Assembly: GCF_025384765.1 (NCBI RefSeq)
Contig: NZ_VHLL01000001.1
Span: 372,001 to 436,000 of the forward strand
DNA from: Methanoculleus formosensis
Lineage (GTDB): Archaea > Halobacteriota > Methanomicrobia > Methanomicrobiales > Methanoculleaceae
Length of the DNA: 64,000 bases
Direction of reading: 5' to 3'
Part shown: positions 48,730 through 56,887 of the stretch, one piece after another
Layout of the letters: each line of letters starts with the position of its first letter
How positions within the stretch are numbered: the first letter of the stretch is position 1
Program-made: the position numbers and the translations under genes
Notes under the pieces: generated by a model
Told to the model about the DNA's origin: nothing
What the model saw: the letters and a program-made list of their open reading frames with translations, nothing else
Database searches by the model: none

Positions 48730-50988
48730 TTACTCCGGGACTACGGCCGCCGCCGGGGCCCGGGAGCGGCCGCCGAAGCGGTGCGCCAGCGAAAGAACCG
48801 CCGGCATCACGACGATCGCACCTAAGAGCGAGAACCCGACAGTGATGACCGTCACAATCCCGAAGTTACTGATGATGTTGAACGTCGAGATGGTGAGCGC
48901 CGCAAATCCGAAGACCGTCGTCATCCCGGATGCGGTGATGGCCGTCCCGATCTTCTGGACGGCGATCTGGATGGCGTCGAGGAACTCCATGCCCCGGGCG
49001 AGTTCCTCCTCGCACCGCTCCATGATCAGGATGGTGTACTCGGACGCGACCCCGATCGTCATCGACCCGAGGACGGCCGTCAGCGGCGTGTAGTCGAGGC
49101 CGAGGAGGTACATGATCCCCCCGTTCCAGCCCACGATGAAGACGATCGGGATGACCGGCGCGATGGCGCCGAATTTCCGGTAGACGAGGAGCATGAACCC
49201 GAGGATGAAAGCGAACCCGAGCAGGGTCATGTACGTCTTGGACTCAGCGATATCGTCCATGAGGGCAGCGAACATCTCCAGGCTGCCGGTGATCTTCACC
49301 GTCACGCCTGCCGGCGGACTGTTCCAGACCGCGTCGCCCTGCATCCTCACCACGAGGTCGCGGGCGACGCTCATCTCCATGTCGACCGTCGAGAACTCGA
49401 GGACCGCCTCCATGTTTCCGTTGAGGTAACGCTTCAGGGTCGATTCCGGGATCCGGGCGACGACACTCTCGACCTCCCTCTCAGTCGATGGCAGGACCCC
49501 GTCGTTGTATTGCCGGATCAGGGTAGCGATGCTCGTCACACCGGTGATCTTGTCGTTATGTTCCTGCTCGTAGACCCCGAACTGATCTATCCATTCGAGC
49601 GTCTCCGGGGAGAGGACGTCGTCCGCGAGCACGATGACCGGGATGGTGCTCGTCGATCCCATCGTCCGGGTAACTTTCTCCAGGTCCTGAAGGGCCGGCA
49701 TATCCCCCGGGACGAAGGTCTTCTCGTCAGAACTGATGGGGACCTTCTCGTCGAGATAGTATCCGCCTCCCGCGACCACCGCAAAGAGCAGAATGACCGG
49801 GATCGGGTATTTTGCGATCGTATAGGCCAGCCTGCCGAGAAAGCGGTCGTACCGCTCCATGATGGGAGCCCCTGACTTCTGAGCGGAATCGGCAGCGGGA
49901 GCCTCATGCTTTGGCCGGTAGCGGGTGACGATCGCAAAGACCGGGACGATGACGAGCGCTGCGACGTAACAGCAGACCACCCCGATGGTGCAGACGATCC
50001 CGAAATCGGCAACCATCGGCACCGGGGCGAAGAACATCGCGATGAACCCGAGAGCCGTCGCCGTCATCGCGATCAGGACCGAAGGACCCATCTGCGTGAC
50101 GGTGGCCCACACCGCCTCCGGGATCGTGCTGTTTCGGATCTCCTCGTCGAACCGTGCGTGGAACTGAATTGCATAGTCGATCCCGATCCCGATCATCACC
50201 GGGAACGCCCCGATCACCACCATGCTGATCGGGATGCCGAAGATGCCCATGAACCCGAAGGTCATGATGAGCCCGACGGCCACGATCCCGACAGGGAGGA
50301 GACTGTAGCGGACGTGGGAGAAGAGGAGCATCACGGCGAGGACCATCAGAAGCATGGCTGCAAGGATCAGCATGCCCATCTGCTCCCCCATCGCCTCCGT
50401 CATCTCCTTCGAGAACGCCGGGTTTCCCGAGACCGTGACCGAGATGCCCGGTGGGGGTTCCGATATGCTGATGGCGGACTCGATGTTCTCGACGACCCGC
50501 ATCTGGGTCTCCAGGCCGACGCCTGTCTCAAGGGCGATGACGCTGATCGTCATCAGGTCCGAGGGCAGCATCCGCTCGACCATCTCGGGAGGAGCCTGTG
50601 CGATGATCGCGTTGATCTCCGCCGTGGACGACGGCAAGGTGCCGCTGTTCGCCTGTTTCAGGAGGTCGACGATGCCGGAGACTTCGTCGACGTAGCGTTC
50701 GTTCCGGAGGTCTTCCTGGAGGTGATCGATGTATCTGAGCGCATCGGGGTTCCTGACGCTGTCCGCCTCATAGATGATCATGATCGCGTCGGAACCGTAG
50801 GTGTCCTTGTAATGGGCAAGGAGCGCGCCGCGGGGCGTGGTCTTGTCGATGTAGGTGTCGTCGCCGGTCTGCATCGTCACCATCGTGAGGCCGAAGCACG
50901 CCAGGACGAATATAGCGGCGGCAACCCCGGCGACGGTCCAGGTGTGGTTGTTGATGGCAGCGGCGAGCCATTCATAGGGGTTCTTCAT
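48730..50988 (-). CDS. RND/MMPL-family transporter, copy 1
   Basis: 752 residues, two repeats, each of one N-terminal TM helix, an extracytoplasmic loop domain and five more TM helices (12 total). HAE3/MMPL-type motif: FGIGIDYAIQFHARFDEE (first half) and VLGSMTIGVASEYTILIMERCEEE (second half) with Asp and Glu in the fourth-helix proton path. Proton- or sodium-driven export, perhaps of lipid or hydrophobic compounds. Closely related to the gene at 51350, about 2.4 kb away. Confidence 0.93.
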   Translation of the reverse strand: MKNPYEWLAAAINNHTWTVAGVAAAIFVLACFGLTMVTMQTGDDTYIDKTTPRGALLAHYKDTYGSDAIMIIYEADSVRNPDALRYIDHLQEDLRNERYVDEVSGIVDLLKQANSGTLPSSTAEINAIIAQAPPEMVERMLPSDLMTISVIALETGVGLETQMRVVENIESAISISEPPPGISVTVSGNPAFSKEMTEAMGEQMGMLILAAMLLMVLAVMLLFSHVRYSLLPVGIVAVGLIMTFGFMGIFGIPISMVVIGAFPVMIGIGIDYAIQFHARFDEEIRNSTIPEAVWATVTQMGPSVLIAMTATALGFIAMFFAPVPMVADFGIVCTIGVVCCYVAALVIVPVFAIVTRYRPKHEAPAADSAQKSGAPIMERYDRFLGRLAYTIAKYPIPVILLFAVVAGGGYYLDEKVPISSDEKTFVPGDMPALQDLEKVTRTMGSTSTIPVIVLADDVLSPETLEWIDQFGVYEQEHNDKITGVTSIATLIRQYNDGVLPSTEREVESVVARIPESTLKRYLNGNMEAVLEFSTVDMEMSVARDLVVRMQGDAVWNSPPAGVTVKITGSLEMFAALMDDIAESKTYMTLLGFAFILGFMLLVYRKFGAIAPVIPIVFIVGWNGGIMYLLGLDYTPLTAVLGSMTIGVASEYTILIMERCEEELARGMEFLDAIQIAVQKIGTAITASGMTTVFGFAALTISTFNIISNFGIVTVITVGFSLLGAIVVMPAVLSLAHRFGGRSRAPAAAVVPE

Positions 50989-51068
50989 GCGTATTCCTCC
51001 GGCGTCTTCTCCCCGTGCTCCGCGATGATCGCCGGGGTCACCGCACGAGCACTTTCGTCGTCATTCTG
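50985..51068 (-). pseudogene. CooS-like fragment upstream of MMPL copy 1
   Basis: The 28 codons just before the MMPL ATG encode NDDESARAVTPAIIAEHG and then EKTPEEYA, ending in GCATGA over the MMPL start. This aligns with SDGEIAHAVTMAIIAEYG at the matching place upstream of MMPL copy 2, which resembles the CooS segment. The further upstream part is lost or scrambled. Confidence 0.5.
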
Positions 51069-51236
51069 CCGACCGGACGCTGTAGGTTCCTTCTTCACGG
51101 GGGCACGAAGGAACGAAACTCCGAAACGGTCTCCTGGATATTCTTTCCCGGTATACAGGTCTCCACCCCGGGGTTTGCTGGAGTCACGGCAGGTTTCCGG
51201 CGCAACAGTGTGGTTGCGCGGTTGACGGCTCTCTGC

Positions 51237-51248
51237 GCTATATATAGC
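51237..51248 (-). promoter_or_regulatory. Palindromic TATA element of MMPL copy 1
   Basis: GCTATATATAGC is a perfect 12-bp palindrome and a strong TATA candidate 250 bases before MMPL copy 1. The flanking GGTTGACGGCTCTC matches AGTTCACGGCTCTC (54023-54036) upstream of copy 2, where the TATA is degraded. Confidence 0.5.
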
Positions 51249-51349
51249 TCATTTTCAGGGTATAGTTCTTATGGAGCCGATGTCGGCAACACTGCTTCTC
51301 GGGGCACACCAAAAAGGAGAATGAGGTACGGTCTGCAAAAAAAGGGGTA

Positions 51350-53611
51350 TCAGTCCGCTACGCCGGCCCCTGCCTGGGCTGGAACCCGGGTGCTCCCCGT
51401 ATAGCGATACATGATCGAGAGGACTGCCGGCAACGCGATGATCGCGCCCACGAGCGAGAACCCGATGGTGATGACCGTCACAATCCCGAAGTTGGAGATG
51501 ATGTTGAAGGTCGAGACGGTGAGCGCCGCAAACCCGGAGATCGTCGCCGCCCCTGAGACCGTGATGGCCATCCCGATCTTCTCGACGGCGGTCTGGATGG
51601 CTTCGAGGTAGCCGACGCCTTTTGCCAGCTCCTCCTCACACCGCTCCATGATCACGATGGTGTACTCCGAGGCCACGCCGATGCTCATCGATCCGAGGAC
51701 GGCGGTCAGCGGGGTGTAGTCGAGGCCGAGGAAGTACATGATCGCCCCGCACCAGCCTACGACGAAAGCGATCGGGATGAGCGGCGATACGGCCCCGATC
51801 CTCCGGTAGACGAGGAGCAGGAACCCGAAGATGAAGGCGAACCCGAGCAGGGTCATGAACGTCTTGGATTCGGCGATATCGTCCATGAGGGCGGTGAACA
51901 TCTCCCCGCTGCCGGTGATCTGTACCGTCGCCCCGGCGGGGGGATCGTTCCAGGCTATGTCGCTCTGGATCCCCTCGATGAACGACTTCTGAGCGTCCAT
52001 CTCCATCGCAACCGTCGAGAACTCAAGCACCGTCTCCATCCTCCCGTTGAGGTAACCCTTCAGGGTCGCCTCCGGGATCCGGGCGACGACGGCGTCAACC
52101 TCCGCGCTCGTTGCGGGCAGAACTCCGTTGTTGTATTGCCGGATCAGGGTTGCGACGCTTGTCACGCCGGTCATCTTGTCGTTCTGCTCGAGTTCGTACG
52201 TCCCGAACCGATCTATCCATTCGAGCATCTCGAGCGAGAGGACGTCGTCCCCGGCCACGATGATCGGGACGGAGGTCGTCGACCCCATCGTCCGGGTTAT
52301 CTTCTCCATGTCCTGGAGGGCGGGCATCGTGTCGGGAACGAACGTCTTCTCATCTGCGCTGATGGGGACCTTCTCGTCGAGGTAGTACCCGCCTACCGCA
52401 ACGACGCCGAAGATCAGGAGGACGGGAAGCGGGTATTTTGCAACGGTATGCGCCATCTTTCCGATGAGGTGCTCATACCGCTCGACGAGAGAATGCCCTG
52501 ATCCTGAGGTTGGATCGATGGCTTTTGCCTCTTTGGGCCGGTAGTTCGTTATGAGTCCGAAGACCGGGATGATGACGAGCGCCGCAACGTAACAGGAGGC
52601 GACTCCTATGGCGCAGACCTTCCCGAAGTCGGCTATCATCGGCACCGGGGCAAAAAACATCGCGATGAACCCGAGCGCCGTCGCCGTCATCGCGATCAGG
52701 ATCGACGGCCCCATCTGGGTGATGGTCGTCCAGACGGCCTTCGGAAGAGGAGAGCGCCGCGCCTCCTCGTCGAACCGGGCCTGAAACTGGATCGCGTAGT
52801 CGATCCCGACCCCGATCAGCACCGGGAACGCCGCAACCACCACCATGCTGACGGGAATCCCGAAGATGCCCATGAGCCCGAAGGTCAGGATGAGCCCGAC
52901 GGCCACGACCCCGACGGGAAGGAGGCGGTAGCGGACGTGGGAGAAGAGGAGCATCACCGCGATGGTCATGAAGACCATGGCTACAAGGATCAGCGTGCCC
53001 ATCTCCGCTCCCATCGCCTCGCCCATCTCCTTCGAGAACGCCGGGGTTCCTGAGACAATGACCGAGACGCCCGGCGGAGGTTCCGATATGCCGATGATCG
53101 TCTCGATATTTTCGAGGACCTGCCCCTGGACCTGTGTGGAGACGCCCGGTTCAAGGTTGATGACGCTGATCGTCATCAGATCCGAGGGCAGCATCCGCTC
53201 GACCATCGCCGGTGGGGCCTGTGCGATGATGGCGTCGATCTCCGCCGTGGACGACGGCAGGGTGCCGCTGTTCGCCTGTTTCAGGAGGTCGACGACGCCG
53301 GATACCCCATCGACATAGCGCTCGTTCCGGAGGTCTTCCTGGAGATGATCGATATAATCGAGGACCTCGGGATTTCGGACACTGTCCGCCTCGTAGATGA
53401 GCATGATCGCGTCGGAGCCGTAGGTGTCCTTGTAATGGGCAAGGAGCGCGCCGCGGGGGGTGTCTTTGTCGATGTAGGTGTCGTCGCCGGTCTGCATCGT
53501 CACCATCGTGAGGCCGAAGAGCGCCAGGAGGAAAACGGCCGCCGCGACCCCGGCGACGATCCAGGTATGGTTGTTGACGGCGTCTGCGAGCCGCTCGTAG
53601 GGGTTCTTCAT
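51350..53611 (-). CDS. RND/MMPL-family transporter, copy 2
   Basis: 753 residues, tandem paralogue of copy 1 with the same layout, loops and motifs (GVGIDYAIQFQARFDEE and SMSIGVASEYTIVIMERCEEE). The N-termini of the two are almost identical over the first 120 residues, which fits recent duplication or gene conversion. A reverse-strand oligo-T terminator (51336-51342) follows the stop. The ATG overlaps the CooS-like fragment (ATGA). Confidence 0.93.
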   Translation of the reverse strand: MKNPYERLADAVNNHTWIVAGVAAAVFLLALFGLTMVTMQTGDDTYIDKDTPRGALLAHYKDTYGSDAIMLIYEADSVRNPEVLDYIDHLQEDLRNERYVDGVSGVVDLLKQANSGTLPSSTAEIDAIIAQAPPAMVERMLPSDLMTISVINLEPGVSTQVQGQVLENIETIIGISEPPPGVSVIVSGTPAFSKEMGEAMGAEMGTLILVAMVFMTIAVMLLFSHVRYRLLPVGVVAVGLILTFGLMGIFGIPVSMVVVAAFPVLIGVGIDYAIQFQARFDEEARRSPLPKAVWTTITQMGPSILIAMTATALGFIAMFFAPVPMIADFGKVCAIGVASCYVAALVIIPVFGLITNYRPKEAKAIDPTSGSGHSLVERYEHLIGKMAHTVAKYPLPVLLIFGVVAVGGYYLDEKVPISADEKTFVPDTMPALQDMEKITRTMGSTTSVPIIVAGDDVLSLEMLEWIDRFGTYELEQNDKMTGVTSVATLIRQYNNGVLPATSAEVDAVVARIPEATLKGYLNGRMETVLEFSTVAMEMDAQKSFIEGIQSDIAWNDPPAGATVQITGSGEMFTALMDDIAESKTFMTLLGFAFIFGFLLLVYRRIGAVSPLIPIAFVVGWCGAIMYFLGLDYTPLTAVLGSMSIGVASEYTIVIMERCEEELAKGVGYLEAIQTAVEKIGMAITVSGAATISGFAALTVSTFNIISNFGIVTVITIGFSLVGAIIALPAVLSIMYRYTGSTRVPAQAGAGVAD

Positions 53612-54027
53612 GCGCGCTTCTCCGGCATGCCTGCCCCGTACTCCGCGATGATCGCCATGGTCACAGCGTGAGCGATCTCGCCATCGCTCCTGCCGCCGTG
53701 CTCGATTCCATAGTCTTCCGCCATGCCCCGGAGTCTTGCGGGGTCGAGGATCCGGTAACCTCGGCCGTTCTCCCCGGATTTAGCCGTTACCGTGAGAATG
53801 GACGAGAAGAGGGACGCTGCCGGCTCTTCCTCCATGGCGAGACGGTGCAGCAGGGCTACAGCCCGCCGGCTGTCCGGCGGGGGGTTGAATCCCGCCTCGA
53901 TCCAGACCTGGCCGGTCTCCTCGATATGCGATTCTTTGCAGGATGTTTTGTGGTAAACCGGCGTTCTGCACGGAGATACTCCGGTACCCCCACAGGATCC
54001 GGTATTGCAGGTGGTTGCGTAGTTCAC
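53608..54027 (-). pseudogene. CooS-like N-terminal fragment upstream of MMPL copy 2
   Basis: 139-codon frame. The last 66 residues (53608-53808) look like a piece of CooS after its N-terminal cluster domain: ILTVTAKSGENGRGYRILDP, ARLRGMAEDYGIEHGG and RSDGEIAHAVTMAIIAEYG match the HTLL..A.GKA..Y.I.D...L...A..LGI...G....EIA..V..A pattern. The first 73 residues do not match anything and look degraded. Catalytic domains are absent. The call rests on remembered family pattern, not on a search. Confidence 0.5.
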
Positions 54028-54787
54028 GGCTCTCCTCGTAACAAATGGCTCGTTTGCTGGTGTGATCTTTTGAGAGACAGAACATCAATCTGGTGCAACT
54101 CAGGCGGGGGCCAGAATCGGATCCGGGGCTCTCAGCGGGGTTTTCTGCAGCCGGTCCCTCTCATGCCGGCCGGTGCTGCAGGACCCGGGGGTTTACAGGG
54201 TTTATCGCGCAGGAATCGTTCACCTCCGGCGAGGTCCGCCATCTCATCATCGAGGAGGCAACCTCTTCCGGGAACGGGCTGCTCCCGGGTCTCAACCCGG
54301 AGAGTTCGGTCACGCGTGGCAAAGCACTGCGGGCATTTCTGAAGAACCGAAGTCGGCGGTTCGTAGAATAGTCGGGCACCAGCAGGATCGCGCGGTGAAC
54401 GCCTGCGCGGGGGCGAGCGGCGTCTGGGAGGTGTGTCGGGAAACGGACGGTTCGGGCGGCGGTTCAGCCGCGTCCGTCTGTTCCCGTCAGGTGATCCAGG
54501 GGAGCCGACGGCGGCTCCCCCGGTCTTCGGAGGGTGGATACATCCGAGCATCTGTTCAGGTGGTATCGCTCTTCTATGCTGCTCCCGTTCGCTCTTGTCG
54601 GAACGGTCTTTTTCTAAGGCGGGTATTCCCGATCTGGTGTTTCCAGATCGCTGAAGCCGGTATCCGGCCTCTAACAGGAGGCTGCTCCGGTTAAGGGCAG
54701 TCTTGCGAGGAGAGTCGAGCCCTCTCTCGCTGATCTATCTATATCCCGGCGTAAACCATAAGTTTGTTGCAACCCAATAGAGGTGCA
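54028..54787. other. Intergenic stretch before the TrmB regulator
   Basis: Apart from MMPL-unit promoter sequence at the left (to about 54070), I see no full gene. A forward frame ending at 54371 has a protein-like end (IAQESFTSGEVRHLIIEEA... to KALRAFLKNRSRRFVE) and may be a gene remnant, but no start or family is evident. The right 60 bases hold the TrmB promoter. Confidence 0.5.
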
Positions 54788-55543
54788 ATGGCTGCTGAGA
54801 TAGTCCCCGGGCTCCGCGCCCTCGGGATGAACGAGTACGAGGCGAGCGTCTACTCTACGCTTGTCGGGCTGCAGAAGGCGACCGCCCGGGATATTCACGA
54901 GATGAGCAGGGTTCCCCGGGGCCGGATCTACGACATCTTAAACGATCTGGCCCGGCGGGGTTTCATCGCCGTGGAAGAAGGTTCTCCGGCATCCTACTAC
55001 GTGCTCGACGTCGACGTGGTCTTCGACCGGCTCAAGGGCGATTACATCCGTTCTCTCGAAGAGACGCGCGAGGCGCTCAAGAGCCTCTCGGTCAAACCGC
55101 GCCTTCCCCCGGACTCGTTCTTCATCCTCCGGAGCGGGTGGGCGATTGAGAACCATATTTCTGCGCTCTTCCGGCGGGTGAAGGGGAGCATGGTGATCCT
55201 CTGCTACAACCCCGAGTTCCTCCGGAAGTATTACGCGACCATCAAGCCGCTGGAGAGGAAGATCGATCTCTACGTGGTCGTGCAAAAAGGGGAGGAATGT
55301 GTCGACATCAACCTCCCGATCTATGAGGCCAGGGGAACCGTGGCCGAGCTCCTGAATACCCGGCCGGTGAACGAGTCGGTGATGGAGGGCCGCAGGAAGG
55401 ATGAGTGCGCGATCCTGGTCGACAGCCGTGACTTCTTTGCGATCGCCACCGCGGGGTCCGGGCGGTATGCGGTGATCGGGTCGGACATGCCGATCATCGG
55501 ATACCTGCAGAAGACGATCGTCGAGCGGCTCAAGGAGGCGTGA
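54788..55543 (+). CDS. TrmB-family transcriptional regulator
   Basis: 251 residues from the ATG preceded by GAGGTG. N-terminal TrmB winged helix (about 10-75: LRALGMNEYEASVYSTLVGLQKATARDIHEMSRVPRGRIYDILNDLARRGFI). C-terminal effector domain with the PLD-like fold (about 105-251: FFILRSGWAIENHISALFRRVKGSMVILCYNPEFL). TrmB proteins sense sugars or small molecules. Convergent with the serpin gene; no sugar genes nearby, so the target is unknown. Confidence 0.9.
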   Translation: MAAEIVPGLRALGMNEYEASVYSTLVGLQKATARDIHEMSRVPRGRIYDILNDLARRGFIAVEEGSPASYYVLDVDVVFDRLKGDYIRSLEETREALKSLSVKPRLPPDSFFILRSGWAIENHISALFRRVKGSMVILCYNPEFLRKYYATIKPLERKIDLYVVVQKGEECVDINLPIYEARGTVAELLNTRPVNESVMEGRRKDECAILVDSRDFFAIATAGSGRYAVIGSDMPIIGYLQKTIVERLKEA

Positions 55544-55582: not shown

Positions 55583-56887
55583 TTACGCGCTCTCCGGGTT
55601 CGCGACCCTTCCTGCAAAGAGGATCGTGCCGGAATCCTCCTCGACGATGAGGAAGACGAACGGGTGGTCCGCCCGGAAGACGGGCGTGGTGTCCCCGCCG
55701 GGCGCACTCTTTATGTTCATGATGACCCCGGTCGCCGCCGCGGCCTCGGTCCCCTCCTCGCTCACGTCGACGAACGCCTTATGGACGACGTCGCTGATGA
55801 AGAGCCTGTCTGTCCCGTCCATCCCCGCGAAGTCGGCATCGCCGGAGAACGCCGTCGGCATCCCCATCGCCGAAAGCGTCGAGGGGAGGCTGTACGTCGT
55901 CTCGAGCGTGAACTTCGGGAAGACGACCCTGACCCGCCGATCGGTCAGCGACTCCCGGAGGTCCGCGAGCGTCTCCGCATCCAGTACCTCTTCCGCCGCC
56001 GTCAGGTTGTCTTCCTTCGGGAGGAGGACGAGCATCGAGAGTTCTGTTCCGTTTCCGTGTGCGTACGGCATCCTGAGCACCTGGAGGTTGTCGGTCTCCG
56101 CGTACCCGTAGATCGCATCCTCGTCCGTGCGGTGCATCATCGGAACCCGGACCGCCTCGCCCGGAGCGACCCGGAACTCCTCCTCGGTCGTCTCGGCGGG
56201 GTCGAACTGCTTGACCCAGGTGCCCTTGAAGTAGATCGCGTTCGTGATCACGAGCCGGGTCATGGGGTCGACCGAACCGGCGGGGAGGAGGTCGCGGATC
56301 TTATCCTCGGTCTTCTCCTCCACCCAGCGGTTGATGGTCTCGCGCGACGCTTCAGCGTCGCCGGCGAAGTCGAGGTTCGTGACGTTTGCCGAGTACCACC
56401 GTGCGGCCGTATCGACATATGCCGGGAGGAACGGGTAGGCCTCCTCCGCCCAGAGGGCGTTTGCGGTGCGGAGAGTGTAGTTCTCGTCCCCGCGGTTCAG
56501 GACGGCATCGAGCCCGGCAAACCCGGATCTCCGAAGGGTCTCGTTCTGTGGGAGGTGAAGCACCGACCCGATCTCGTCGCCGGTCGCGCCCCGGGCGCCC
56601 TCGTAGGTGATCGCGAGGGCCGAGGAGATACTGTAGGGCGAGAAGAAGATGTTTTTACCCGCAGATCCCGGGTCGCCTGCAATCTGCCGGTAGAGGTCGA
56701 ACCCGAACTGGTTGTTCCCCGCCGAGACGTTGCCGACGCCTCCGGCATCCGGTCCCGGCGTCTCCTGCCCGGCGGGAGGGGCCGACTGCCCGGACGTCGT
56801 TTGCGGTACATCGGTGCATCCCGCGGCGATGCAGCCGATCGTGATGAGGCCTGCGAGGAGCAGCAGGCCGATGATCCTCCTGTTCAT
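55583..56887 (-). CDS. Serpin-family protease inhibitor, lipoprotein
   Basis: 434 residues. A signal peptide with lipobox ending AAGC (Cys about 24) anchors it outside the cell; a low-complexity linker (about 25-55) follows. The serpin core has NAIYFKGTWVKQFDPAET, the shutter motif and a reactive loop whose hinge is EEGTEAAAATGVIMNIK, with small residues typical of inhibitory serpins, then FRADHPFVFLIVEEDSGTILFAGRVANPE. The scissile P1 is probably near the M/N/K region. The target protease is unknown. Confidence 0.93.
   Translation of the reverse strand: MNRRIIGLLLLAGLITIGCIAAGCTDVPQTTSGQSAPPAGQETPGPDAGGVGNVSAGNNQFGFDLYRQIAGDPGSAGKNIFFSPYSISSALAITYEGARGATGDEIGSVLHLPQNETLRRSGFAGLDAVLNRGDENYTLRTANALWAEEAYPFLPAYVDTAARWYSANVTNLDFAGDAEASRETINRWVEEKTEDKIRDLLPAGSVDPMTRLVITNAIYFKGTWVKQFDPAETTEEEFRVAPGEAVRVPMMHRTDEDAIYGYAETDNLQVLRMPYAHGNGTELSMLVLLPKEDNLTAAEEVLDAETLADLRESLTDRRVRVVFPKFTLETTYSLPSTLSAMGMPTAFSGDADFAGMDGTDRLFISDVVHKAFVDVSEEGTEAAAATGVIMNIKSAPGGDTTPVFRADHPFVFLIVEEDSGTILFAGRVANPESA

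Follow-up and report, generated by a model that had tools for sequence, protein, structure and literature searches.

A small gene homologous to part of the carbon monoxide dehydrogenase CooS lies between a TrmB-family regulator gene and an HAE3-type exporter gene in Methanoculleus formosensis

We identified, directly before one of two tandem MMPL exporter genes of Methanoculleus formosensis, a complete gene whose 139-aa product is, on the evidence of sequence profiles, a stand-alone domain homologous to residues ~118-212 of the Ni,Fe carbon monoxide dehydrogenase (CODH) CooS. This stretch forms part of the N-terminal helical domain of the enzyme, and in the mini protein its two recognizable units are swapped, a circular permutation at the level of sequence, with a tryptophan-containing unit (W unit) preceding one that contains the motif YRI (YRI unit). 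The identity of the mini protein and the architecture of the cassette to which it belongs (regulator, mini-CooS, exporter) can be assigned with high confidence. The explanation that we favor overall, a regulator, mini-CooS and exporter cassette in which the mini protein would be a small cytoplasmic partner, we regard as reasonably probable.

Results

The window analyzed here is the whole stretch of 64,000 nucleotides from contig NZ_VHLL01000001.1 (positions 372,001 to 436,000). Its relevant features are as follows.

48730-50988, minus strand: MMPL copy 1, exporter of the HAE3 family, 752 aa (TIGR00921, 512.3 bits)
50985-51234, minus strand: mini pseudogene before MMPL copy 1, with its GTG start changed to GTC, a frameshift and the core lost (gap alignment with G003, G017, G018 and intact genes)
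51350-53611, minus strand: MMPL copy 2, exporter of the HAE3 family, 753 aa (TIGR00921, 495.7 bits)
53608-54027, minus strand: permuted mini-CooS gene, 139 aa, GTG start at 54027-54025, stop overlapping the start of MMPL copy 2 (ATGA)
53635-53766, minus strand: YRI unit (GYRIxDPxxLRxxAxEYGI...EIAxxVTxAIIxEYG), mini residues ~88-131, matching CooS ~120-163
53830-53922, minus strand: W unit (EETxQVWxEAGFxPP...AVALLHRLAM), mini residues ~36-66, matching CooS ~180-215
54032-54037, minus strand: Shine-Dalgarno site GAGGAG of the mini gene, kept in nearly all members of the genus, in the region of the GTTsACGGCTCTC block
54764-55543, plus strand: TrmB-family transcriptional regulator (PF01978, E 1.4e-20), divergent from the mini gene

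Both MMPL proteins score above the curated TIGR00921 (HAE3) cut-off of 351.9 bits and match the family over their full length. They are tandem copies with ~76% identity, and each gene overlaps the end of an upstream frame, these frames ending in AHAVTMAIIAEYG or ARAVTPAIIAEHG. The initial annotation had correctly recognized the paired overlaps with their matching ends, as well as a CooS similarity in the frame before copy 2. It had taken that frame for a decaying fragment of about 65 residues, whereas it is a complete and conserved gene under purifying selection. The gene is present in 29 of 35 Methanoculleus genomes, including all 24 of high quality, and has relatives in Methanofollis, Methanogenium and other Methanomicrobiaceae; such a conserved full-length small gene in other genomes is what the annotation itself had named as evidence against its model. 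All 29 mini genes of the genus share the start region GAGGAG-N4-GTGAAC or a close variant of it, and their products are about 129-142 aa long. Pooled dN/dS is 0.37 for the whole gene, 0.22 for the W unit and 0.29 for the YRI unit, while the tail, with a value of about 1, is unconstrained. An AF2 model of the mini protein reaches pLDDT 86-94 across most of both units, and the protein matches no family in Pfam, NCBIfam or PHROGs.

A GTTsACGGCTCTC block stands before both MMPL copies, at 51221-51233 and 54022-54034, as had been reported, with a TATA-like stretch just 5' of it in each case. Its earlier interpretation as a homologous promoter stands only in part, since the block is shared but its coding strand holds the start codon and the Shine-Dalgarno site of the mini gene; the wider region around it may still have a promoter role. 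Adjoining the TrmB gene is a serpin gene (55583-56887 of the window; PF00079, 2.3e-119) with homologues in the matching region genus-wide.

A profile of the mini family matches CODHs of solved structure (PDB) with E down to 1.3e-9 and archaeal CooS with E down to 1e-14, and the CooS similarity noted earlier is therefore real. Each half of the profile also finds CooS separately: the N-terminal half, with the W unit, matches CooS ~180-215 (E to 1.9e-9), and the C-terminal half, with the YRI unit, matches CooS ~120-163 (E to 2.6e-14). Among 1050 shuffled CooS sequences, the first half had no match and the second only matches with E>2. In whole-genome searches both half matches fell in real cooS genes, in the swapped order. 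When a 99-aa CooS segment was doubled, the family profile aligned once across the junction and gained 13.1-28.9 bits in 20 of 20 CooS sequences, compared with at most 5.0 bits in 1000 shuffles. This single alignment depends on trimming to 99 aa, as with wider segments of 137 aa it does not form and no bits are gained; the two separate half matches do not depend on it. Positions occupied by T, W, G, P, V and H are shared between the mini family and CooS.

The mini protein is not itself a CooS. At 139 aa it lacks the two Rossmann domains of the full-length, ~620-aa enzyme and reaches neither the TIGR01702 nor the PF03063 cut-off, and the conserved B/D-cluster cysteine motif of CooS, which lies upstream of the matched segment, is missing from it. 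The cysteines that do occur in its N terminus are not constant across the genus, and the ~100-aa sister forms described below have none of them. In AF2 models, the permuted form and the form with CooS order share their small secondary-structure elements, arranged in rotated order, the model of the CooS-order form being of low confidence. Structure searches with these models in Foldseek and VIA-align gave no significant match: CODH chains headed the first list, from Foldseek, with E of about 1 and stood lower in the second, and Z in VIA-align stayed below 5.

The native order of the helical segments, which the mini family of the window does not have, is kept only in sister mini genes of 92-112 aa. 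One of their products matches CooS collinearly over its full length (E 3.8e-9), with one internal gap in the alignment. Once the CooS-order minis were doubled, the profile of the permuted family aligned across the junction in a single match and scored 44.7-58.2 bits instead of 27.6-31.6 (gain 15-27). The native-order mini gene of G103 (L129:7035-7378) is split over two frames by a frameshift or an assembly error.

The neighborhood of the permuted form was compared at 52 loci from three families of Methanomicrobiales, all within one order. All 52 have a TrmB-family gene no more than 2.5 kb away, divergent at 47 and non-divergent at five, although the loci are related by descent, so that these counts are not independent events and overstate the independent evidence. 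An HAE3-type MMPL gene directly follows the mini gene at 48 of the 52, and no relative of the TetR query was found within 3 kb at any of them. Around the CooS-order minis the regulator is of another class: a divergent TetR-family gene lies within 184 bp at all 13 loci where the contig allows a view, a TrmB relative is near none of the 14 loci, and an MMPL gene is directly downstream at eight of 14. Both regulator classes were confirmed with Pfam. As the genome of the window has only three strong TrmB genes, the adjacency of TrmB and mini gene is not due to abundance. The regulator is thus a more constant partner of the mini genes than the MMPL gene, and mini genes with a regulator and without an MMPL gene nearby occur at L058, L062, L064 and L099 and at L105-L107, L125, L128 and L129. 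In G118 the mini gene (L101:6961-7851) is followed by an MMPL fragment only (hmm 630-743), apparently a truncated exporter.

The leader of MMPL copy 1 derives from a decayed mini gene, not from cooS. The last ~60 nt of the two MMPL leaders align well (MAFFT), and the core of the mini gene is missing from copy 1. The earlier view that both leaders had decayed thus holds for copy 1, which lost its start and its core and suffered a frameshift, and fails for the intact copy 2. The window genome and G003 share the decay pattern of a lost core and a shifted frame, with the GTC start found in the window genome. In G017 and G018 (L024:10549-11108 and L021:8627-9210), an in-frame core deletion leaves an open leader of ~65 codons before the second MMPL gene. 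Copy 1 falls among the genus-typical single copies in the MMPL tree, and copy 2 forms its own clade (100/100) with its counterparts in G003, G017 and G018. From this tree and the decay of the leader it follows that a unit of mini gene and MMPL gene was doubled or acquired, after which one mini gene decayed, in support of the duplication of leader gene and transporter proposed earlier. The mini genes that accompany MMPL copy 2 do not form a single clade of their own; in the small-gene tree they are interspersed with ordinary ones, perhaps owing to their short length or to recombination. A shortened permuted mini gene without the YRI strand, located before an MMPL gene in G099 (L108:6431-7249) and with no TrmB match nearby, is perhaps another decaying copy.

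The mini gene is independent of cooS, and several genomes that carry it, among them the single-contig G006, have no cooS match. No MMPL gene was found within about 2 kb at any of 20 cooS loci of the order. At 14 Methanoculleus cooS loci, viewed with about 4-5 kb of flank, one MMPL gene was seen, in G016 (L171:1-1266; 51% identical), about 3.9 kb from cooS. Because Methanoculleus cooS is a divergent type that lacks the LHRxxMG stretch resembled by the mini family, it is not likely to be the parent of the mini gene. A TrmB-family gene stands convergent beside this divergent-type cooS at 13 of the 14 loci (L134, from the genome of the window at C4:36000-48000, and L160-L171), echoing the TrmB gene by the mini gene. 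In the same genome, two ORFs 5' of cooS (L134:1561-4472) have cupredoxin-like domains, one of them also a glucose/sorbosone dehydrogenase domain, which is unexpected in a strict anaerobe.

Discussion

When these results are placed in the context of the cassette, a function for the mini protein can be proposed. It would be the first product of the operon, a small all-helical partner that resides in the cytoplasm and carries no cofactor; the lack of a cofactor is suggested by the position of the matched CooS segment, outside the preceding cysteine motif. Such a protein would most likely relay information between the exporter and a ligand-sensing regulator, which is TrmB in the window and TetR where the mini gene has CooS order, and could act as a co-sensor, an anti-repressor or an adaptor. 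Regulation of the mini and MMPL operon by the neighboring TrmB protein is predicted from the conserved divergent position of its gene. As the mechanism is read from gene order, we offer the specific assignment of the mini protein as a partner of the regulator tentatively.

It is also conceivable, if somewhat unlikely, that the mini protein is an accessory subunit of the exporter, binding MMPL as a cytoplasmic adaptor or substrate chaperone in an operon that the regulator merely controls. The ATGA overlap suggests coupled translation and would suit such a subunit, as would the MMPL gene directly downstream at most permuted and more than half of the CooS-order loci. Mini genes with a regulator and without an exporter nearby are harder to reconcile with it, and on this ground a role directed toward the regulator is slightly favored; in addition, MMPL copy 1 is retained next to a mini gene that is no longer intact, although the mini protein of copy 2 could serve both. 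The overlap might instead mean that the small frame serves only as a leader for translational coupling of MMPL, the protein itself being irrelevant. Its unconstrained tail, and the copy-1 leader frames of G017 and G018 that stay open despite the core deletion, fit this idea, but the core dN/dS of 0.22-0.29 and the core motifs conserved over three families, also in genes without MMPL, make it very improbable.

Descent from CooS raises the question of whether CODH itself is the target, with the mini domain mimicking a CooS surface to modulate assembly or activity of the enzyme. The TrmB gene beside most Methanoculleus cooS genes could be taken to point the same way. We nevertheless consider this quite unlikely, as the mini gene is kept in many genus genomes without a full-length cooS match, including G006, and the cooS type of the genus has no LHRxxMG stretch to be mimicked. 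A still smaller chance is left to the model of the initial annotation, in which decaying cooS remnants mark an ancestral CO dehydrogenase-transporter operon: the CooS homology is genuine and copy 1 is indeed a remnant, but it derives from a mini family distinct from cooS, in which two CooS segments have changed places, the full-length gene of this family is conserved in all good genomes of the genus with a constrained core, and among the 20 cooS loci of the order and the 14 further Methanoculleus loci the sole MMPL gene in view lies 3.9 kb from cooS. That the similarity to CooS is convergence of helical motifs appears hardly more credible. Short helical segments can match by chance, and the structure searches found no significant fold match; against this, the two profile halves are each significant against CooS and have no comparable counterpart in the shuffled sequences, a CooS-order mini is collinear with the enzyme over its full length, and invariant T, W, P and H positions are shared.

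Compared with known systems, the mini protein corresponds to two N-terminal helical segments of CooS (Prismane PF03063, TIGR01702), ~118-163 and ~178-212. Unlike the enzyme, the family consists of ~100 core residues in swapped order, has no C-cluster domains and has no conserved B/D-cluster cysteine pattern. Like cassettes in which a TetR or TrmB gene is divergent from an RND/MMPL pump gene, the arrangement described here combines a divergent ligand-sensing regulator with an exporter of the RND superfamily, but an extra mini-CooS gene precedes the pump and each of the two circular forms goes with its own class of regulator. The exporter itself shows no difference from the HAE3 family (TIGR00921) of MMPL/RND exporters; it is the accessory gene that differs. 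The cassette may be described as one of the regulator-exporter type, its third component being an unnamed derivative of CooS. A literature search returned nothing on CODH with MMPL, on circular permutation of CODH or on TrmB with CODH, and we found no prior report of a CooS piece reused as a separate protein.

It is plausible, at close to even chances, that a structural piece of CODH was turned into a non-enzymatic signaling or adaptor domain for exporter control, present in both circular orders within one archaeal order, with TrmB accompanying the permuted and TetR the native form. A metalloenzyme fold is rarely seen to serve anew as a separate partner protein that has no cofactor, and it is uncommon for both orders of a natural circular permutation to survive in one lineage; here a traceable series would run from the full enzyme through the native-order mini and the permuted mini to the decayed mini. 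Annotators gain a family for which none of the searched libraries holds a model, and a testable third component can be named for the regulator-exporter cassettes of methanogens that live in sediments and biogas plants.
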